Source of the DNA: Endomicrobium sp.
GTDB lineage: Bacteria; Elusimicrobiota; Endomicrobiia; Endomicrobiales; Endomicrobiaceae
Reading direction: 5' to 3'
Assembly: GCA_031260705.1 (NCBI GenBank)
Contig: JAISLA010000014.1
Span: 1-64,000 of the forward strand
Length of the DNA stretch: 64,000 nucleotides
Shown: positions 35,233-59,326 of the stretch, in pieces
Layout of the letters: each line of letters opens with the position of its first letter
Numbering within the stretch: the stretch's first letter is position 1
The notes under the pieces: model-generated
Told to the model about the DNA's origin: nothing
The model's database searches: none
Seen by the model: the letters and a program-made list of their open reading frames with translations, nothing else
Made by a program: the position numbers and the translations under genes

Positions 35233-35831
35233 TTATGTAAGATTAACAAATTTAGCTGTTTCTTCTTGCAGAAAGCCCGCAAAATCACTCCTGAATTTAA
35301 TATCTGAATCTTGATTATTTAAAAATAGTCTTTTTAATGACTCTTCTGAAATTACAAAATCAGCGGGAAGAGTTCCTTTTTTATAACCGCTAAAAATATT
35401 TTTTATTAAAGGCATATATACCTCTACCTTCATTGGTATATTAAAATGATTTTTATCCTCACACTTCTTTTGATATTCTAAAATAGAATTTCTATCAAGA
35501 TGTAAAATCAAAAAATCTTCAAAATTAAAATAATTAAAACGAAAATCAGGTATTGATTTAGGTTCTTTTATATATTCGTCATTATTTCTATTCTCATTTC
35601 TTTTATATATATCTTTATCTATCCAGATACAGAGTTTACTTTTTTTATTTTTCTTTTTTTCACATTTATATTTTTTTCTAACTTCTTTAAAATGTCCTGT
35701 CTCCACAGGGCGCGGAACCAAATTAATAGTTATTCCCCCCGGTCACCGAAGTATTTATTAAGTTCTTGTATATATGCACATTCACTTTTGCCTTCGCAGA
35801 TAATTATATAAATTAGGTTAAGTTTATACAT
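35233..35831 (-). pseudogene. RloB-like protein with a -1 frameshift at a G6 tract (possibly phase variable)
   Basis: MYKLNLIYIIICEGKSECAYIQELNKYFGDRG | ITINLVPRPVETGHFKEVRKKYKCEKKKNKKSKLCIWIDKD...; the two frames join at C6 (plus strand 35735-35740). Confidence 0.7.
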
Positions 35832-35840
35832 ATAAATTCC

Positions 35841-37193
35841 TTAAATATATGGAAATGGAATGCCTGAAAATTCACCGTTTAAATACATTTTCCTGAAATC
35901 CGCAGTATTTCTTACATTTTCAAAATCAGAAATTCTCTTAAATGTAGATCCGCTTTTTAAATTTTTGTTTATTAAAGCGACTTCGGAAACTCTTAAAATA
36001 TCCATATCGAGAATATCCGCACAGTGAATTGTAAATATCAGTTGGGCATTGTTTTTATTATATTCTTTACTTTTAAACATTTCTATAATTTTTGCAAGAA
36101 TTAAAGGATGTATGGAGTTGTCTAATTCATCTATCACTAAAATGTCACCTGCATTAAACGCTAATAACATTTCAGTAATTAAACCAAATAAAATATTTGT
36201 ACCTTTTGATTCATCTCGCTTCATATCAAAAATAATTTCCTGTCCATTAATGTCTTCATGATAAGAATCAATAAAATCACGCCTCACCGTACCTTTATCC
36301 GGGTCAAAACTGCTGTATCTGGGTATTGTTTTAGGAAAATTTTCATAATAACCTTTTAGTTTTTTATCTTTTATTTCAATATGTTTTGTAGTGGGAGCTA
36401 TCCTTAAAATATCTATATCAAATTTATGAACAATATTCGAAACCCTGTCAGAAATATCTTTAACATATTCATTGGATTTCTTTAAATCACTTAATAACCT
36501 TAACATCCTCTCAGCTATATCATTGGAGCTATATATCATCTTATGATAATAATATCCTTTGAAAACCGTACCAATATCTTCGCTCAAGCCGGGATAGTGT
36601 TCTGCGATAACTGACATAAAAACTCTTTTTTGTAAATAAACATTTTCTATCTTTTCAGAACACTCCACTGATAAAATATTTTTAATTTTTTCTTCATTGT
36701 ACTGTTCATTCATTACAGCATTAAAGTTATATCTCTCATTGCTGCGCGATGTATTATCTATTTCATATATAATCTTATCGTCTTTTAATAATGACTCCTT
36801 TTTAATTTCTCTATGGTCATACTCAATAAGATGTTTAAATTTTGCTGAACCTATAAAAATTTCAAGTTCAAAAATAGTGGTATTGTATTTATTATTTAAT
36901 CTGTTTGGAAAATAGCAATTTTGTATATTTGTCGATTTAATAATAAATCTATATGTAGACAAAGCTTTTATAATATTTGTTTTTCCGGAAGCATTTGCAC
37001 CGTAAATTGACATACACGGGACAAATCTGTTTCTCTTATCTTTTGGCGATATCTCTAAAAAAGGCATTTTTGAAAAAATTTGGTAATTATTTGGCGCTTT
37101 TCCTTCTGAATATGAGAAGTCAACTTTCATATCCAAAATAGACCTATAATTTTGAATTCTAAAAAAAGATAACATAGATTTTTCCTTAAACAA
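35841..37193 (-). CDS. AAA-family ATPase, RloA-like
   Basis: SIYGANASGKTNIIKAL Walker A, ILVIDELDNSIHPLI, IFTIHCADILD; full length 450 aa. Confidence 0.85.
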   Translation of the reverse strand: MFKEKSMLSFFRIQNYRSILDMKVDFSYSEGKAPNNYQIFSKMPFLEISPKDKRNRFVPCMSIYGANASGKTNIIKALSTYRFIIKSTNIQNCYFPNRLNNKYNTTIFELEIFIGSAKFKHLIEYDHREIKKESLLKDDKIIYEIDNTSRSNERYNFNAVMNEQYNEEKIKNILSVECSEKIENVYLQKRVFMSVIAEHYPGLSEDIGTVFKGYYYHKMIYSSNDIAERMLRLLSDLKKSNEYVKDISDRVSNIVHKFDIDILRIAPTTKHIEIKDKKLKGYYENFPKTIPRYSSFDPDKGTVRRDFIDSYHEDINGQEIIFDMKRDESKGTNILFGLITEMLLAFNAGDILVIDELDNSIHPLILAKIIEMFKSKEYNKNNAQLIFTIHCADILDMDILRVSEVALINKNLKSGSTFKRISDFENVRNTADFRKMYLNGEFSGIPFPYI

Positions 37194-49339: not shown

Positions 49340-50560
49340 TTTACATATCGTCAGGGCAGTTCCCAGCCTTTTCCTCCCCGCAAGCCAATTCACTAACGTT
49401 ATCGTACCAATCCAGTTCTGTCTGGTATATTTTATTTAACCATTTATTTCATCAGTGGCAGTACAGCTGTAAGGGACCAAATGGGCAGCCCAACCATCAT
49501 TTTTTGCTTTTAAATACGTATCTATAGGATTATCTTCAGTGCTTTTCAATTGTGAATCTATTTCGCTTGCCAATGATTAAGCAACTGATGCAATAAAAGG
49601 TAAAGCAAACGGTCCAAACGCCATTGTATATGCGACTACAAAGTCCATAAGAGCTGATTCTAAACAAGCTGCAGTTTCAACCAAAACCATAGTTAATTTG
49701 GTTTTTCCTGTAAAAGTATATTCTTTTTTAGGAAACATTGACCCTTTGACATTATATGCTGCGGCAGCAGAATAAACTATAATCTGAGGATATTGTATTC
49801 TCAACAATTTTGCAAACAGCAGGCTTTTATTATTTGTTTTTTGACGAAGAATGACTTTAACTTTTTGTTTTTTGAACTTGTCTCCTTCGACAAGCCAAGA
49901 GTAATTGCTTTTTTATACTTTTCATCTGTGCAAAAAAATGAAAATGTTTATCATAACCCAAATAAATACAGATATCATTAATTGTAGAATAATATTGTAT
50001 CCCTTTTGAATTTCGTTTTAAGTCTAAATTATATTCGGGTTTTACTGGAGATACCAAGATGTCGTAATCTTTACTGATGTTATCTGCAAGTACGTTGTAA
50101 TAGTGAACAAAATATCCTTTTATAGCTGTATCTTGATATCGACAATCTGTTTTATTTTTTGCACCCCTCTATTTTGCTTATTTAGTAGTATTGTTTTGTG
50201 TTTTAAATCCGATTAATGGATTTTCCAATGAAGGATTCATTCCAAGCGATAAAATTATTCCCATAAGATAATTTGTATTTCCGAGAAAATTTAAAACTCT
50301 GGCTTTGTATGTCGCCAAAGACAGCGCTATATTGTCGGCTTCATTTTGCATCGTCATTCTGTTCCTTATAAGATTAGCTATATTTAGCATCATCACCCAA
50401 CTGATGACAAGTATTACTACGAAAATTAAGAAATAATACAGAATACAGCGTTTGTCCTTTATGAGAAAACAGCTTATGTTTACAAAAATTGATCTGACAT
50501 ATATTAATTCTTTTCAAATTCTTTTGCTCATGGAAAAGTTTTATAATAATATTCTTCATC
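49340..50560 (-). pseudogene. TadG-like pilus assembly protein, fragmented
   Basis: Blocks in shifting frames: SHKGQTLYSVLFL / VVILVISWVMMLNIANLIRNRMTMQNEADNIALSLATYKARVLN / VSPVKPEYNLDLKRNSKGIQYYSTINDICIYLGYDKHFHFFAQMKS / LLRIQYPQIIVYSAAAAYNVKGSMFPKKEYTFTG... / SLASEIDSQLKSTEDNPIDTYLKAKNDGWAAHLVPY. Confidence 0.55.
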
Positions 50561-50580
50561 AGGAGCAGGCATATTTTGTC

Positions 50581-50778
50581 TCATTTAACATAACTCGCTT
50601 GGGATCCGGATATTTTTAAAGTGCCTGTGGTTATTCCTGATGGAGCGGAAACCCATTCATATTTTCCTTTCCAAAACTTTTTATAAATAATAAAAATACC
50701 CGACATTGCTACAAACAAAACGACAAACACGAGTAAAAACTCTGTTAAAGTTTGTCCTTTATTTATTTTCATTGTCAT
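50581..50778 (-). CDS. TadE/Flp pilin-like small protein
   Basis: MTMKINKGQTLTEFLLVFVVLFVAMSGIFIIYKKFW: short basic leader, GQTLTEF, hydrophobic helix. Confidence 0.5.
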   Translation of the reverse strand: MTMKINKGQTLTEFLLVFVVLFVAMSGIFIIYKKFWKGKYEWVSAPSGITTGTLKISGSQASYVK

Positions 50779-50799
50779 TCTTCTATCAATTTTGTTGTC

Positions 50800-51180
50800 T
50801 TTTACGACAGTTGGAGTAATTTATCAGTATTCTGTATTTTTTCCATTTTACTGAAGATTTCCCGACAACTCCAGCCGCTACAATAGGAAATTCTCCGCCA
50901 ACCATAAATTTAGCACTTGTACCTGATTTTGTAATAAGTTTAGGTTACAGCACCGTTTTCTTCCAAAATTTTGAGAGTTTTCAAAAGCTGCTTTCTTATT
51001 TCTACAAACTTTGACTCAACAACAGCCGGAATACTGAATATGTCTGGCGAAATTGTGCCTGACCATTCAATGCCCAGATCTCTAGTTTTGTTTTCATTGA
51101 TCTCGGTGATTTCTACGTCAATTTCTATCATTTGCTCTGATGCGTACGCAACAACTGCAAAAAAAATAAAAACGAAATGA
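50800..51180 (-). pseudogene. Secretin-like (Tad/type II) protein, frameshifted
   Basis: FFAVVAYASEQMIEIDVEITEINENKTRDLGIEW... then, after stop/frame change, LITKSGTSAKFMVGGEFPIVAAGVVGKSSVKWKKYRILI. Confidence 0.65.
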
Positions 51181-51183
51181 TAA

Positions 51184-52257
51184 CTAATTTTTTCTTTTTT
51201 GTCTTTTATAAAACGGTTTAGGAACTGTTTTTATCTTTCTTCTGTTATTGTGAATTTCAACTTCCAATTCATCCGTGTCGGCATCCGCATCAATCAACGC
51301 CATACCTATTGCTTTTTTTAATGTGGGAGAAAAAGAACCGCTTGTTACATATCCGACTTTTTTATTTCCCGAAAAAATTTCATTTGAATTTCTTGCAATA
51401 CCTGACGTACATTCAAACGCTATTGATTTTTTCATAGACTTGTTTTTTAGAAGCAGCAGCCTGTTTTTACCTATAAAATCGTTATCCCAATTTATTATCT
51501 TTTGAAATCCGGCGTCAATAGGATTTATATTCTCGTCAATTTCATGCCCGTGTAAAGGCATACAAGCCTCTAATCTTAAAGTATCGCGACAGCCGAGTCC
51601 GCAGGGTTTTACCGAAAGACTCATAAGTTTTTCCCAAAATTTATTTACCTGCTCTTTTGAGATAAAAACTTCAAAGCCATCTTCTCCCGTATAACCAGTT
51701 CTTGCAACTCTGTAAAAATCTACATTAATATCTTTCAATTTTAATATTGAAGCTGTAAAATATTTCATACTTTTTATATCGGTTTCAGAAATGCTTTGTA
51801 ATATTTCGGCAGACTTAGGACCTTGTATCGCAGTAAGAGAAATATCGCCGCTTATATTTTTTATTTCGACTTTTTCCATTTTATGTTTGTTTAACCAGTT
51901 AAAATCTTTTTCCAGATTTCCGGCATTTACTACAATCATATATTCACTGCCAAATTTATAAACTATAATATCGTCTTTTATGTCTCCTTCTTCATTTAAT
52001 ATCATTGAGTATCTTGCTTTTTTATCAGGCAGTCCAGACATATTTCCAAGCGTAACATAATTCAAAAACTTTTCAGCATTTTCTCCGGTTACTGTAAAAG
52101 TTCCCATATGAGCCGTATCAAATACCCCAACATTTGTTCTTACGGCATTATGCTCATCAATAATTGATGTATATTGCACCGGCATTTCCCAGCCGCCAAA
52201 TTCCGTAAATTTTGCTCCAAGCTTTTTATGCTCGTTAAACAAATGTGTTCTTTTCAT
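51184..52257 (-). CDS. gcvT: Aminomethyltransferase (glycine cleavage T protein)
   Basis: RTHLFNEHKKLGAKFTEFGGWEMPVQY, RTGYTGEDGFEVFI, GLGCRDTLRLEACMPLHGHEI. Confidence 0.95.
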   Translation of the reverse strand: MKRTHLFNEHKKLGAKFTEFGGWEMPVQYTSIIDEHNAVRTNVGVFDTAHMGTFTVTGENAEKFLNYVTLGNMSGLPDKKARYSMILNEEGDIKDDIIVYKFGSEYMIVVNAGNLEKDFNWLNKHKMEKVEIKNISGDISLTAIQGPKSAEILQSISETDIKSMKYFTASILKLKDINVDFYRVARTGYTGEDGFEVFISKEQVNKFWEKLMSLSVKPCGLGCRDTLRLEACMPLHGHEIDENINPIDAGFQKIINWDNDFIGKNRLLLLKNKSMKKSIAFECTSGIARNSNEIFSGNKKVGYVTSGSFSPTLKKAIGMALIDADADTDELEVEIHNNRRKIKTVPKPFYKRQKRKN

Positions 52258-52485
52258 TTTTTGTATTCCTCCTTATTTATTTTTAAGATTACCATCAGCT
52301 ATTAATATCTTCGATTGTGCCAAACCTCGCACCAGACAGACACTCCTTATAATAGTTAAGCTCTTGGTCTACAAGCATTGTAATCCTAATATCGCACATA
52401 ATAAACAATAAATCTTGCTCGACATCTCTTTAAAGGTTTTTAGCACATGGCTATGGAGTAGTCGTAATCACTCATACAGAGGAAC

Positions 52486-52963
52486 TCATTTGCACCCTCT
52501 TCTCCCACTTTGTACATATAAGCCCTTATCACTGTCCTCAGAACCGTCGAAGGACATGTACTTAAAGCATCCCGATTCTCCCGCTTTCGCTTCTGTTCCT
52601 AGCGTCGCTCTGTATATCGTTGCATTCAGTCTCTTTATGTATTCTGACCTGTCCCAGTTAAGTTTCATTTTGTTTCATCCCTGTTTATACCTAATAGTGC
52701 TCATATCCAAGGGTAACTGTTTGTATTTCAATTCTTCGTTTATGTCATCTAATATCGGTTCAACTCCCTTTTTGTACAATCTTCAAAAAACATTATCCCT
52801 AACTAAAATCTTCTTCATTTTACTCATATTTGTTACATCATTACTTCGTATAAAAAAACAACGATTAAAAAAGACCAAAATAATCAATATTAAACCAGCT
52901 CCTAATTAAACCAGCTCCTACTACGCATACAACTAATTCGATTATGAGTAATATGAACCACAT
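52486..52963 (-). pseudogene. Decayed small membrane protein/unknown ORFs
   Basis: RBS GGAAAAGGAG then MWFILLIIELVVCVVGAGL; frame broken by a 16-bp tandem duplication; downstream MKLNWDRSEYIKRLNATIYRATLGTEAKAG... Confidence 0.4.
52889..52920. repeat. Perfect 16-bp tandem duplication (ATTAAACCAGCTCCTA x2)
   Basis: Direct reading at 52889-52904 and 52905-52920. Confidence 0.95.
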
Positions 52964-53005
52964 TTTCACTCCTTTTCCCCTTGTTCTTGAAATTGCACAT
53001 AGAGT

Positions 53006-54196
53006 TTATTTTTTTGTTCGTAGGCTTAACTCATTAAGCCTTTCTTCTTTCCAAAATTTTGCAGTCTTTTTATTTAAAATAATGCAAGTATCATTATAAT
53101 TATCTTCACCCTTGCATTTGCCCCAATTCTTTGATTTAAACCCTTCATTATTGTTTTTTTTATCGTAAATGAGTTTGATTACTGCATTGTTTCTTAAAAT
53201 AGCCAAAGCAGAATTTTTATTTTCAATAGGTATTATTTTAGTTATATCTTTTCTATTTGAATATATTTCAATTCCAATCCTATCTCTTATGAAATCGCAA
53301 ATTGTTGGGTTGCATCTATCAGTTCTTTTTCCACTTTCATTTTCACCACCTTTTTTCAAAAATTTTAGGCATATAAATGGTAACCTATAAATAGCACCGC
53401 CGCCGTCCCCACCCCCGCATACCAGCCCCAATGCAACGGCGCACGTTTCTGCTCTAATAATTCTGCCAAATAATTTACAGTCTTTGGAGGCTCTGGCGGA
53501 ACAAACTCTGGGTGTTTTTTATTGGCAGTGCCTTCGCACTGCGGAATGTTATCGTATTTAAGCCAATCCTTGCGTCCGGCCTCTACCTCTTTTTCAACTA
53601 TTAAATCCCGTTTTTTGTTTAAGTTTGCAGCAATATTTTTCTAAGTCTTTGTATAGATTACAATTTACGTTCCCATCATCACTTGTCACATAAGTGTTTT
53701 GAAAAAAATCTCCGACAAATAAAAAGCCAATGTTTGCCTGAGCAACTTGAGTTATAAAGTTAAAATCATGACCGCCTAAATCCTGAAACTCATCAAAAAA
53801 TAAATAATCGTAAAATCTTTCAAGTCTTGCCTTTATATCATCAATTATACCTTTATCTTCAGCAAACTTACCCAAACGATTATAATAAAAACATTTTTCC
53901 TCATTTATATATTGTGAATAGAATTTTTTCGGTCTGTTAAAACATATTCCTTTTATTTTATACTTGAAAAGCACAAAAGGCTTAATGCAAAAATTGTATA
54001 AAAATCCAAAATATTCTTGAGTTCTGATATTATTTGGATGATACCCAAATCTTTTTACAATTCTATTTTTTATTAAATTGAGGTTTGTATTTGTATATGT
54101 AATAATGACAAATCGTTCTTTCAAATTTAAACGATCTATCAAGTACTTGGTTTTCCCTGAACCTGCTACAGCTAATATTAGTTTTCTCTCAGCCAT
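53006..54196 (-). pseudogene. UvrD-like helicase (GajB-like), split by an insert and frameshifted
   Basis: N-part 53594..54196: MAERKLILAVAGSGKTKYLIDRLN, FFDEFQDLGGHDF, FLFVGDFFQNTY. C-part: RCNPTICDFIRDRIGIEIYSNRKDITKIIPIEN... with TKNKLYV in the next frame. Confidence 0.75.
53319..53620 (-). mobile_element. Small foreign insert inside the gajB-like gene
   Basis: Higher-GC segment with frame VEKEVEAGRKDWLKYDNIPQCEGTANKKHPEFVPPEPPKTVNYLAELLEQKRAPLHWGWYAGVGTAAVLFIGYHLYA* followed by a RBS-like GGTGGTG and ATGAAAGTGGAA; borders approximate. Confidence 0.5.
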
Positions 54197-55745
54197 TTGA
54201 TTGACTCTTTAATATATTCGGGAACTGTCAACTCATCACCCTTTTTATCAAGTAATTCAAGTGCACACTCTGTTTTGTTATTAAGTATATATTGCTTAAC
54301 ATCTTTATTTTTTTTTAATTTTTCCCGAAAAATTTCATCACAAATTTCTTTGTTATTATTATATAAAGATATTTCAAATGTATATATATCATTATCTGTT
54401 TCATAGAAAACTTTAACATTTTCACTATTATAACTTGTATAGTTGTCAACACATTTATTTTGATAGTCTTTATCATTGTCTGTAATTACAGCTGTTTTTA
54501 TTTTTAATAGATTAGCTACCTCCATATATCTTTTGAATCTCTTTCCTCCAGCAGAAATAATATGTATATCTGATAAGTTTGGCTTTTCCCCAGTTTCTAG
54601 TTCAAAAAACTTCTCAAGCAATATATATTCCGTGTCACCTTCAACAAGAATCACTCTACTTGACAATATAAATTCTAATATGTTGTTGTATGATGACTTA
54701 ACAAAAAATTTTGCTGTTTCTTCACTTAGTTCCTCTAAAACAATGGGTTTTTCGCTACTGCTGTTTAACAAAATAGAATTACGTAAATCCAATCGAGCAC
54801 TAATCAAATTATTATGCGTCGCTATAAATAACTGTTTGTTTTGGGATTCGTTAAGTCTTTCTATCAATTTCAGCATATTAATGTGACTTAAATGATTTTC
54901 GGGTTCTTCTAACAGGATTATATCAAGTTCATCTTCATTTTTTTGCAATGCAAATTCAGTTTTTATGAAACATTGTCTTCCTTTACCACGATTTTGTAAA
55001 TCAACATCGTCTTCAGTAATTGTCAAATCTGTCTCAAGATTAAATTTTGTATTATTTTTTATTGAAAATTCGTATCTGCCTTTAGATATTCTGTCATTTA
55101 AACATTTTAATACCTTTTCTTTAAATTTTAATTTAAAATTACGATATTCATTTAAATGTTTATTTTTTTCAACTTTCGAAACGGAACAGTTATAAAGTGT
55201 TTTTACAAATAAGTCGGTAGCATATTCATTGTCTATCATTGTATTATCCAATAAAATATGTTTGAATTGTTTTTTAAGATAAGTATTGTAAGTATTGCCA
55301 CTAAATTTTATGAAAGAAATTGAATAGTACTCGTACGGGAAATTATTGGTACTCTGCTTTAATATATCTGAAATATCCTTGCTGAATTCTTCTTTCGGAG
55401 AACAAATTAAACTAATTCCAAAATGATCTTTTTCTAAAGAATTATTTCTTCCAAAAAACTCTTCATCTTTTATATCGTCAAAATATAATTCAATGATTAA
55501 TTTAGGTAAAGTTTCATATGTTTTGGTTGTAAAAAATTTCTTAATAGCATCTGTATTAAATAAATTGTCTAATCCCAGTGTTTCAATTTTATGTATACTT
55601 CCCGATAAAACTAAGTCTATTGCCGATAGAATAGAACTTTTACCAGATTCATTATCTCCAACAATGCATTAATATTTTGTTTAAAATTGATTTCAATAGA
55701 ACTGAACCTCTCAAAATTAAATACTCTGAGTTTTTTAATTTTCAT
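54178..55745 (-). pseudogene. OLD-family ATP-dependent endonuclease (GajA-like) with one frameshift at the Walker A
   Basis: MKIKKLRVFNFERFSSIEINFKQNINA | IVGDNESGKSSILSAIDLVLSG... continuous to 54178; LLEEPENHLSHINM, ATHNNLIS, TOPRIM VILVEGDTEYILLEKFFE and ITDNDKD. Confidence 0.8.
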
Positions 55746-55752
55746 TTTGCCG

Positions 55753-56920
55753 TCATTTTACCACAAATATTATATCCGCCAAAGCCGAAAATCTATGAGA
55801 TCTGCCATTGAATTCAAAAGATATATTCAAATCTTCTGTTTTTTTGCCTTTGAAATTGTCCAAATATGAAATAATCGCTGGTTTCAATAAGTTAATATTT
55901 CGTTTCAATTTCCATGAATTATTAAAGTCATCTGTGTCAACAAGAATAAGAAACAAGCGATTTTCTGAACCGAATCGCATTTCTCCCTGATTTTCATAAA
56001 GCCACTTTATTAAAATTTTCGTTTTTCTTGTACTTCTTTCAAAATCTCCAATTTTTCAGCTTTTAATTTTGTCAGTACTTGACTGCAAAATACATCATTT
56101 TTATCTTTCATTTTCTCTGTTATTTCGTAAAGAATATCAGTTGGTTTTGCATTTTTGTCAAATACGATTCCTGCTTCTGCTGCTTTCTTCTTTAGGTAAG
56201 TTAATTCAATTGGTAAACCTTTTTCTTTACGCTTACATTTAACGTATTCGACACTGGCAAGTAGGTAACTTTCAAATCAAATGGAATGTCATTGATAAAG
56301 AAATCGACGTTTTTTATTTGGCCAACCGTAGGCAACACAACAGGATGTGATTTAAAAACATTTTCAATCACTATGCTACTCCAATAATTATACCAACTGT
56401 TTAAAACATAGCCTTGTACTACGGGATTGATTTCGGTTTCAAATTTTGATATGAGATTATCATAAGATGGATTTAACACTTTTACATATTTTCTCACCAA
56501 ATATTTATCTAATGAACTCCGATAATCTCCACCCCAATCGAAATTTTTAAGTTTATATAATTCCGAAACCAACTGCTGAACGTCAACATTTGTTATTTGT
56601 ACATGACTAACCTTTTTAATGTAGTCATTTAGTAGGCTATGGCTTTGGACTATATCTTGAGAGAGCAACTCAAATAATTCTCGGAAATTATCTATTTGCT
56701 TTTTAGCAGCTATGGTATAGCCTGAAAATTTTAAAAAGTCTTTTACCAACTCAACCCGGATGACTGATTTAATTTTTAACCATAGCAATCCGATATTGTC
56801 ACGATTGAATTCTTCCAATTTCTCGTTTCTATATAGATCATCCCAATAATTAAAATTTTTCATTATACTAATTATTCCTGTTTTTTTATTGGAATAAAAT
56901 GTTTCTTTCGTGGTCTGCAA
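55753..56920 (-). pseudogene. Probable type II restriction endonuclease with two single-base frameshifts
   Basis: ORF 56201..56920 continues in other frames as GLPIELTYLKKKAAEAGIVFDKNAKPTDILYEITEKMKDK... and IKWLYENQGEMRFGSENRLFLILVDTDDFNNSWKLKRN...; lies directly downstream of a DNA methylase. Confidence 0.65.
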
Positions 56921-58011
56921 ACAAATAAAATTTCCTGGCTTCCCGCGACGCTTCCTTTTCCACCTCTATCATTTTGATAGGTTTTTGTTTCAATAGTTAC
57001 ATCGCGATATTTCAGGATTAACTCCTCAAAATCTTCTATTCCTGGATAACTTTTATTGTTATAACTAATTAACCAATAGGGTATCCCTCTTGATAACTCA
57101 AACAGTTTTTCAAAAGAGGAAAAGACATCACGCTTTTTATCAAAACCGCTGTATCTCTGTGGTTCATATCGTTTAATTCCATTTACAAATTCTTTGTCTT
57201 TCCAATATTCTGTATAAGTTTCAAGCAAATGATAAAAACCCTGATAATTAGCGTGACTGTCGCAATATGGAGGATCAAAATATACTAAATCAATATTTGA
57301 TAACTGCGGCAAAAGATCCAAAATGTTTTGATTAAAACTCCTATTGTCATGTGTATTGTCAAAAACTGCATTATTGTAACTCGGCAAAAGATCTTTAAAT
57401 AACTCTTTAATTGGACGAATTAAACTTTTGTTTCGTTTTATCCTTTCAGGATCATTGGCATAGACTAAAGCCTGCATATGACCGAAATGTCCCATTGTTA
57501 TTTTCCGAGTTATACTCCGATTGATTACTGTAAAGGCAATAACTTTCTTGTACTCATTTTCCAATAAAGAAATGTTGGCTCTAAAATTATCTAAAAATAT
57601 GGCTTCTTTCTTTTCAAAAAATATATTGGTAAATGTCTTTTCAATTAAATCAAAATCATCTTTGTTAGTTGCTGACTGAAAAAGAATCGCTAAGTCATTA
57701 TTGTCTAATGTATATGATTTATTTTCAATTAAGGCCTTGCCTATTTGATTGTTGAAATTGAGGAAGTCGTTGGTTATGGTTTTAAATCCTAATTGCTTAA
57801 AGAAAAAACTGACAGATTGAGAACCTGAAAAAGCATCAAGCACAGCAGAAATTCCATCCGGTATAAATTTATTTATCCATGACAAATGGGTGTGTTTTGC
57901 CCCTAAATATTGCGGCTCAGGAAATCTATAATCAAAATATTTATATTCTTCAAAAAGCATTTCAATCCTTATTCTTAACCAGTTCCGTACATTTTCCGAG
58001 TGCGTCTTCAT
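56872..58011 (-). CDS. D12-class N6-adenine DNA methyltransferase
   Basis: YLGAKHTHLSWINKFIPDGISAVLDAFSGSQSVSFFFKQLG (motif I) and VYFDPPYCDSHANYQGFYHLLETY (DPPY). Confidence 0.85.
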   Translation of the reverse strand: MKTHSENVRNWLRIRIEMLFEEYKYFDYRFPEPQYLGAKHTHLSWINKFIPDGISAVLDAFSGSQSVSFFFKQLGFKTITNDFLNFNNQIGKALIENKSYTLDNNDLAILFQSATNKDDFDLIEKTFTNIFFEKKEAIFLDNFRANISLLENEYKKVIAFTVINRSITRKITMGHFGHMQALVYANDPERIKRNKSLIRPIKELFKDLLPSYNNAVFDNTHDNRSFNQNILDLLPQLSNIDLVYFDPPYCDSHANYQGFYHLLETYTEYWKDKEFVNGIKRYEPQRYSGFDKKRDVFSSFEKLFELSRGIPYWLISYNNKSYPGIEDFEELILKYRDVTIETKTYQNDRGGKGSVAGSQEILFVCRPRKKHFIPIKKQE

Positions 58012-59326
58012 AGGCGTTCAGCAGACTTTCGCTAAGCGATGGATGGAACATTGTTTCTCTTGATATATACTCCATACCGCTTTTGAGAATCTGAGAAGCT
58101 GTATTTATGAGTTCGTCAGAATGTGCACCTACAATCCAAAAAGCTAACGGTTTTTTAGTTGTCTTATCAACAGCGCATTTTACAAAACCCGTACGCTCGC
58201 TTTCAATAAAAGCCCTGCCGCTTGCAGTAAACGGAAACTTTCCGAAGACAATATCTTTATATTTTGAAAAATCTAATACTTTTACCGAAGCACTTTGCGG
58301 CATTGCAAAAACAGCTTGCGGGACAATAAAGTTATCGACTACAATAAAATTTCCTCTAATAGCATTTTCAGCAGCTAAGGCTCCTTCGTTTTGGGCAGTA
58401 TATGCAAGCAAATTTTTCCCAGCAATGTCTCCTACGGCATAAATATTTTCTATATTTGTTTGGCAAAACTCATTCGTATCTATAAAACCTTTCTTTGCCG
58501 TTTTAATTTCGATATTCTCCAAACCTAAGTCATTGTTCGGCGTTCTGCCGGTAACTATCAATACTTTTTCATATTTGTCTGCATCATCAAACGCATCAGC
58601 ACATGAAGTCAGCACATTAACACCTTGCCTTAACAAATTTTTTCTTATTTCTTCAGATATTTCTTTATCTTCATTTGGAAGCAGGCAATTTTCATATTCA
58701 GATAGAGTTACTTGGCAGCCAAATCCCGAAAATATCGTTGCCATTTCAATGCCTATTGCTCCACCCCCTATTATAAGCATATTTTTCGGGATTTCTTTAA
58801 GATTTAAAGCCTCTGTCGAACTTATTACTTTACTGCCGTCAAAGGCAGAACCTTTTATTATTAAAGGTTTTGTACCCGAGGCGATAATAATTTTATCTGC
58901 AAAGACTTCGCAGATCACATCTTTTGAAACTGTGCCTCTTTCATTATTCAAAACTGTAAGAGTGTTTTTACCTTTAAACAAAGCGGTGCCGTTTATAACA
59001 TCTAATTTATGTGAAGATAGTATCATTTCCATGCCTTTTCTAATATTGGCAATATTCCTATCTTTTTTTGCGATTATATTTGCAAAGATAACTGGTTCTA
59101 AAACCGCCTTAAAACCGTATTCATAAGATTTTTGGATTTTTTGTTTTGTTTTTAGCGACTGCCACAAAAATTTTGTTGGAATGCATCCACAGTTTAAACA
59201 AGTGCCACCGGTAAAAGATTTCTCTATTACTGCAACTTTTGCTCCAAGCTGAACTGCTCTTATAGCGGCAGTAAATCCGCCCGGTCCCAAACCTATGACA
59301 GCAATATCATATTTATTCAAATTCAT
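57962..59326 (-). CDS. lpdA: Dihydrolipoamide dehydrogenase
   Basis: GLGPGGFTAAIRAVQLGAKVAVIEK, GGTCLNCGCIPTKFL, NIYAVGDIAGKNLLAYTAQNEG. Confidence 0.92.
   Translation of the reverse strand: MNLNKYDIAVIGLGPGGFTAAIRAVQLGAKVAVIEKSFTGGTCLNCGCIPTKFLWQSLKTKQKIQKSYEYGFKAVLEPVIFANIIAKKDRNIANIRKGMEMILSSHKLDVINGTALFKGKNTLTVLNNERGTVSKDVICEVFADKIIIASGTKPLIIKGSAFDGSKVISSTEALNLKEIPKNMLIIGGGAIGIEMATIFSGFGCQVTLSEYENCLLPNEDKEISEEIRKNLLRQGVNVLTSCADAFDDADKYEKVLIVTGRTPNNDLGLENIEIKTAKKGFIDTNEFCQTNIENIYAVGDIAGKNLLAYTAQNEGALAAENAIRGNFIVVDNFIVPQAVFAMPQSASVKVLDFSKYKDIVFGKFPFTASGRAFIESERTGFVKCAVDKTTKKPLAFWIVGAHSDELINTASQILKSGMEYISRETMFHPSLSESLLNAYEDALGKCTELVKNKD

Follow-up and report, generated by a model that had tools for sequence, protein, structure and literature searches.

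Results

Gene organization of the island

The window analyzed in this study, a 64,000-nt stretch of DNA from Endomicrobium sp., contains a four-gene island on the minus strand between lpd (dihydrolipoamide dehydrogenase, 57962..59326, minus strand) on the left and gcvT (glycine cleavage T protein, 51184..52257, minus strand) on the right in transcription order. In most congeners, lpd is directly followed by gcvT. The island genes are transcribed in the order methyltransferase gene, restriction gene, gajA, and gajB. The first gene (56872..57960, minus strand), whose ATG lies almost directly after the lpd stop codon, encodes an intact D12-class N6-adenine DNA methyltransferase (Pfam MethyltransfD12, E = 2e-16; PADLOC MTase_II, E = 2e-54). 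The second gene (55753..56911, minus strand), a probable type II restriction endonuclease gene, is frameshifted at approximately 56254 and 56021 and has no family in Pfam or PADLOC. The sister species has a 356-aa open frame at the same place, and a homolog adjoins the homologous methyltransferase gene in another genus of the family. This recurring pairing suggests that the gene next to the D12 methyltransferase probably encodes its restriction enzyme. The pair in the other genus lies on a short contig with no Gabija genes in view, and the methyltransferase/restriction pair is absent near all intact Gabija relatives inspected; thus, the island looks composite.

Elsewhere in the window, positions 35844-37193 (minus strand) encode an AbiLi-like AAA ATPase (PADLOC PDLC02335, E = 2e-63); the next ORF (35233-35721, minus strand) is 162 aa long and matched no family. 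The two may form a further abortive-infection pair in which the partner is shortened. Short ORFs at 50000-51150 (minus strand) resemble, by eye, pieces of a set of pilus/secretin genes; in Ca. Endomicrobium trichonymphae Rs-D17, the Tad-type pilus genes have been described as pseudogenes (PMC8809381).

The gajA pseudogene

The third gene, gajA (54178..55745, minus strand), is a pseudogene for an OLD-type ABC ATPase with a TOPRIM nuclease domain, as identified by GajA profile, Pfam, and reading frames. Its first 28 codons (MKIKKLRVFNFERFSSIEINFKQNINAL), read from 55745, share one frame, and the remainder, from CIVGDNESGKSS to the stop at 54178, is a 496-codon open frame offset by one base. The sole break in the reading of gajA is a one-base frameshift at approximately 55666, directly before the P-loop, where no homopolymer is present. 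A previous reading of this DNA (hereafter the sequence-only reading) had placed the restoring base near 55660-55672, in agreement with this result. Walker A, which comes after the frameshift, has no start codon connected to it. Because the earliest in-frame start past the frameshift is TTG at 55251, any product would lack Walker A and approximately 140 residues. A programmed frameshift was considered and rejected, as the shift is absent from the sister species, in which the gene decays elsewhere.

The decoded sequence contains Walker A (GDNESGKSS), the Walker B region (LLEEPENHLS), the TOPRIM glutamate (VEGDTEY), SAGG, and the DxD motif (TDND). In an alignment of 18 GajA relatives, the active-site residues of the Walker and TOPRIM motifs are invariant or near-invariant, and the window GajA retains 84 of the 90 positions that are invariant among these relatives. 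The TOPRIM residues E379, G409, D432, and D434 of Bacillus cereus GajA (PMC10781630) align with VEG, GG, and DND of the window protein.

The long open frame alone matches the PADLOC GajA profile PDLC00102 with an E-value of 8.8e-100, and the full decoded sequence, with an X placed at the frame junction, matches positions 1-531 of 532 with an E-value of 3.9e-105. Pfam searches detected OLD-like_TOPRIM (E = 7e-22) and AAA_15. With only 4.1e-19, the E-value for the class 1 Old profile was approximately 80 orders of magnitude weaker than those for the GajA profiles. In a Foldseek search with a middling model (pTM 0.47; TM-scores of approximately 0.3), solved Gabija GajA chains accounted for 14 of the 15 best matches (E = 6e-10 to 1e-5), and retron Eco8 and PARIS ranked 19th and 46th, respectively. 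The predicted fold match rests on local similarity and is supportive of Gabija but not decisive.

The split gajB

The N-terminal half of gajB (53594..54196, minus strand), identified with PADLOC and Pfam, starts at 54196, 19 nt ahead of the gajA stop, giving an overlap of 19 nt. It comprises UvrD/SF1A motifs I, Ia, II, and III, bears AVAGSGKT and FDEFQD, and ends at a stop after 200 codons. This half matches the PADLOC GajB profile PDLC00140 (E = 8e-35, positions 4-187 of 365) and Pfam UvrD-helicase (E = 2e-10), and it retains all 33 of the 33 invariant columns. The E-values of the GajA and GajB profile matches rule out chance, and the sequence-only reading, which had described a minus-strand OLD/TOPRIM gene overlapping a UvrD-like helicase gene, is confirmed.

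gajB is split by an insertion of approximately 255 bp (53344..53598), with a GC content of 0.47 compared to 0.34 for the whole window. The inserted DNA is missing from the sister species and is present in a single copy in its own genome; among the congeners, there is only a 46-bp partial match, in one genome. The displaced C-terminal half of gajB (52974..53319, minus strand) is recognizable from 91% DNA identity to the sister gene and 32-50% protein identity to the GajB C-termini of 29 relatives, and the C-half of the sister's GajB aligns to positions 286-346 of 369 of the GajB profile. Extra frameshifts are present near the 3' end of the displaced half, before motif VI. Between this remnant and gcvT lies a second lineage-specific stretch of approximately 670 bp (52302..52973), which was found in neither the sister nor any other congener compared. 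Searches for the source of these two stretches (53344-53598 and 52302-52973) in their own genome, congeners, viral contigs, phage protein and DNA records, and PHROGs gave no useful match. The interval of 53006-55745 originally assigned to the pair does contain gajA and the gajB N-half (53594-55745), but its low end was set by an ORF (53006-53431) that spans the insertion junction and takes in the displaced GajB C-half.

GajB of an intact relative gave a good model (pLDDT 90) with an SF1 helicase fold, and its matches included UvrD, PcrA, Rep, and GajB. A GajB whose second RecA domain has been split off would not be expected to link ATP to DNA movement.

The island in the sister species and other congeners

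In the sister species (G043, same genus; chromosome contig of 1,114,532 bp), all four genes are present at the corresponding site, with 86-94% DNA identity. The sequence-only reading had proposed a comparison with sister strains to find an intact version, and the gajA of this species does read through the P-loop region, but the gene is broken elsewhere. A 157-bp stretch has been lost in addition to several other deletions and frameshifts, and the TOPRIM region itself is hit by deletions and a frameshift. There are no nonsense substitutions in the aligned gajA codons of the sister, where the damage consists of indels. gajB is also broken by deletions and frameshifts, and its N-half is an open 200-codon frame. 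The methyltransferase gene is in three pieces and the restriction gene is open for 356 codons, the reverse of the window, in which the methyltransferase gene is intact and the restriction gene is frameshifted. In the sister (L046, 9396-11630), the loss of the methyltransferase with an open restriction frame would be harmful if the nuclease were active.

Scraps of the island remain between lpd and gcvT in two further genomes. In G004, these are a methyltransferase N-terminus (58% identity over 74 aa, E = 1e-24) and a GajB C-terminus (53% over 36 aa, E = 6e-8); in G038, part of the restriction gene survives, with 64% identity over 44 aa (E = 3e-9). Judging by coordinates, lpd and gcvT are no more than 165 bp apart in 17 other pairs, which come from 16 further congeners, and no island sequence was found at the two of these short-gap sites whose sequences were inspected (G040 and G005). 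The simplest history is one insertion in the common ancestor of the four genomes with independent erosion since. A prophage-borne system was rejected on account of the housekeeping flanks and the empty site in most congeners.

Two other features were observed at this junction. In the remnant site of G038 (L065, 200-760), a palindrome-rich repeat (GTCGTCATTGCGA...CTTCGCAGCTCGCAATGACG) occurs twice; it is probably a dispersed repeat element. G009 has an insertion of approximately 2 kb at the same lpd-gcvT junction (L066, G009:C4:2200-5600) with one long open frame, which resembles, by eye, a sulfatase/phosphoglycerol-transferase-type protein; the junction may thus tolerate insertions.

Timing of the decay

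The dN/dS values between the window and the sister are 0.27 for gajA, 0.17 for the gajB N-half, and 0.20 for the methyltransferase gene, and those of the housekeeping flanks are 0.23 (lpd) and 0.21 (gcvT). A gene that had been neutral since the split is expected to have a dN/dS near 1. The similarity of gajA and gajB to the housekeeping flanks suggests that the losses were late and independent, and the low dN/dS together with the retained invariant positions suggests that the system remained functional in the two lineages during most of the period after their separation. The sequence-only reading had called the loss of gajA recent, which these data bear out. Its description of the pair as decayed was also right but understated, since gajB and the adjacent restriction gene are broken as well; the broken gajB, the methyltransferase/restriction neighbors, the sister island, and the dN/dS values had been missed.

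Frame-changing indels number 18 in the 4.8-kb island (both genomes pooled, with one indel in the methyltransferase/restriction overlap counted twice) and one in 9.0 kb of housekeeping genes, where it lies at a start-codon edge. This distribution bears on whether the breaks could have arisen in sequencing or assembly, with an unbroken system in the living cell. The assembly consists of 17 contigs and is 81% complete, and the 84 retained invariant positions of GajA and low dN/dS are as expected of a working gene. However, the island has at least three frameshifts and the foreign insertion in 4.8 kb, compared with essentially none in 9 kb of flanking housekeeping genes, and random sequencing error would not follow such a boundary. 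Moreover, the P-loop break site is not a homopolymer, and the sister is broken independently at the same locus. We therefore regard such errors as a very unlikely explanation. The island has decayed in parallel in the sister species by different mutations.

The same data were considered with respect to a new use of the leftover pieces, in which the 357-codon TOPRIM frame from 55251 and the 200-codon helicase N-half would still be expressed and have a function. Both frames are open with dN/dS below 0.3, and the gajB N-half of the sister is likewise open for 200 codons. However, a product from TTG 55251 omits Walker A and approximately 140 residues, the TOPRIM region of the sister has deletions and a frameshift, and ATP would not be expected to be coupled to DNA movement in a helicase that lacks the second RecA domain. 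G004 and G038 also retain almost none of the island, and we consider retention for a new function to be extremely improbable.

Family assignment and relatives

A scan of genome contigs gave 32 GajA relatives, and GajA was extracted from 28 of them. GajB was readable in 26 of these 28, and in all 26 the gajA-gajB order is the same and the two genes overlap by 16 or 19 nt; GajA is 517-524 aa and GajB is 337-354 aa in length in these relatives. The 19-nt overlap of the window is the same as that of four Bacteroidota relatives (L014-L017). Together with the profile matches of GajA (E = 4e-105) and the GajB N-half (E = 8e-35), this conserved arrangement upholds the proposal that the pairing and order are those of Gabija, and the island pair is a member of a short-GajB branch of this family. 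No solved structure of this branch was found by sequence in searches with single GajA and GajB fragment sequences and with profiles.

A different OLD system (class 1 OLD, retron class 3 OLD, or PARIS) with a helicase gene as a chance neighbor would share some of these features, because the ABC ATPase is common to all of these systems and TOPRIM to most, and OLD, retron, and AriA chains came up in sequence searches with the GajA profile. However, Old is far outscored by the GajA profiles (8.8e-100 versus 4.1e-19), so that the profile search does not favor another OLD family, as the sequence-only reading had allowed it might. The overlapping helicase partner recurs in the 26 relatives, and Gabija chains rank first by fold ahead of retron Eco8 and PARIS, albeit with a middling model. 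In retron class 3 OLD, a reverse transcriptase gene and an ncRNA adjoin the OLD gene, and among the ORFs listed near the locus no such reverse transcriptase gene was evident. We find this alternative scarcely credible. Class 1 OLD, a single-gene system with no helicase partner, was rejected because a helicase gene overlaps gajA.

In a maximum-likelihood tree, the window GajA is placed beside the four Bacteroidota proteins with a support of 100/99. GajA of L040, which also comes from Elusimicrobiota and the same family, is placed separately with Prevotellaceae and Cloacimonadota records with moderate support. As judged from these sequence relationships, the Gabija pair was probably acquired from Bacteroidota.

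Discussion

In this study, we described homology, gene order, lesions, synteny, a decay series, and dN/dS values for an island in Endomicrobium. It is very likely that gajA and gajB represent a recently inactivated Gabija antiphage system that was horizontally acquired and lost independently in sister lineages.

With regard to the ancestral antiphage function, the cause of the loss, and the donor of the island, we infer the following scenario. In B. cereus, GajA tetramers and GajB dimers assemble into a 4:4 complex that is needed for defense (PMC10781630), and DNA cleavage by Gabija is inhibited by nucleotides, whose depletion on infection has been proposed to release it (PMC10822852). By analogy, intact GajA (an ATP-binding OLD/TOPRIM DNA cutter) and GajB (a short UvrD-like ATPase) of the ancestral system would have formed a complex whose activity was blocked by nucleotides and unleashed against phage DNA upon infection. 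The pair was horizontally transferred into the ancestor of several species of the genus, with a Bacteroidota-like donor as the probable source, and came to lie at the lpd-gcvT junction, where it adjoins a probable type II restriction-modification pair. Purifying selection on it lasted beyond the separation from the closest sister species. It was then lost independently: in the window through the P-loop frameshift of gajA, the insertion in gajB, and the frameshifts of the restriction gene; in the sister through breakage of the methyltransferase gene and through deletions and frameshifts that hit both gajA and gajB; and in two further species through near-complete deletion. With GajA lacking a joined P-loop and GajB lacking a joined second motor domain, the window copy is not expected, as judged from its reading frames, to have Gabija activity. 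The island may have been useful until recently in an endosymbiont-type lineage, and its independent loss at a similar stage in several sister species might reflect lost phage pressure or the cost of self-attacking nucleases as a driver of the parallel loss of non-CRISPR defense during genome reduction, a suggestion for and against which we see about equal grounds.

The working relatives, a frameshift-level pseudogene, a heavily deleted pseudogene, scraps, and an empty site form a graded loss series that covers one defense island in close relatives with shrinking genomes. The Gabija system itself is ordinary and the parallel decay is mildly interesting; for the mechanism of Gabija, our data add nothing new beyond pointing to the short-GajB branch. 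CRISPR-Cas and restriction-modification systems have been reported in Endomicrobiaceae (PMC11257099). Gabija is not mentioned in the Endomicrobium genome papers PMC11257099 and PMC8809381, and a literature search for Gabija and Elusimicrobiota found no specific link. Our results suggest that defense-gene counts in symbionts of this kind, which largely consist of CRISPR and restriction-modification, miss other systems.

Comparison with known systems

In the Gabija of B. cereus VD045 (class 2 OLD; PDB 8SM3), as in the island pair, the OLD ATPase-TOPRIM nuclease precedes a UvrD-like ATPase. The active-site residues are the same, and the B. cereus system is the best fold match of the middling GajA model. 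The identity is approximately 15-19% over the fold matches, and B. cereus GajA was not reached below an E-value of 0.01 in the GajA-profile sequence search; the biochemistry is therefore carried across a long distance. In the window branch, GajA is approximately 520 aa and GajB approximately 340 aa, compared with 494 aa for BcGajB, and the accessory domains of GajB are reduced. Unlike the B. cereus system, the window copy is a pseudogene pair.

The short-GajB Gabija systems of Flavobacteriaceae (Galbibacter and Algibacter; L014-L017) are closer, with 60-61% identity in GajA and 54-56% in the GajB N-half, the same 19-nt overlap, and a sister-group position in the tree (100/99). In these bacteria, the pair is intact and has no such methyltransferase/restriction pair alongside. 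A second Gabija locus of the genus, which also consists of a GajA and GajB pair, lies beside murJ. It is intact in G004 (L048; GajA of 544 aa and GajB of 390 aa), has a GajA split in two in G043 (L047), and was not found in the genome of the window. With approximately 32-34% identity to the island pair, it represents a separate acquisition at another site.

In Ca. E. trichonymphae, restriction-modification mobility and the decay of defense against foreign DNA were reportedly the subjects, according to their titles, of two studies by Zheng and Izawa in 2016. The restriction genes of the island may already be described there; both studies predate the naming of Gabija (2018). That case involves the same type of host as the Gabija island, and insertion and decay of defense genes are a theme common to both.
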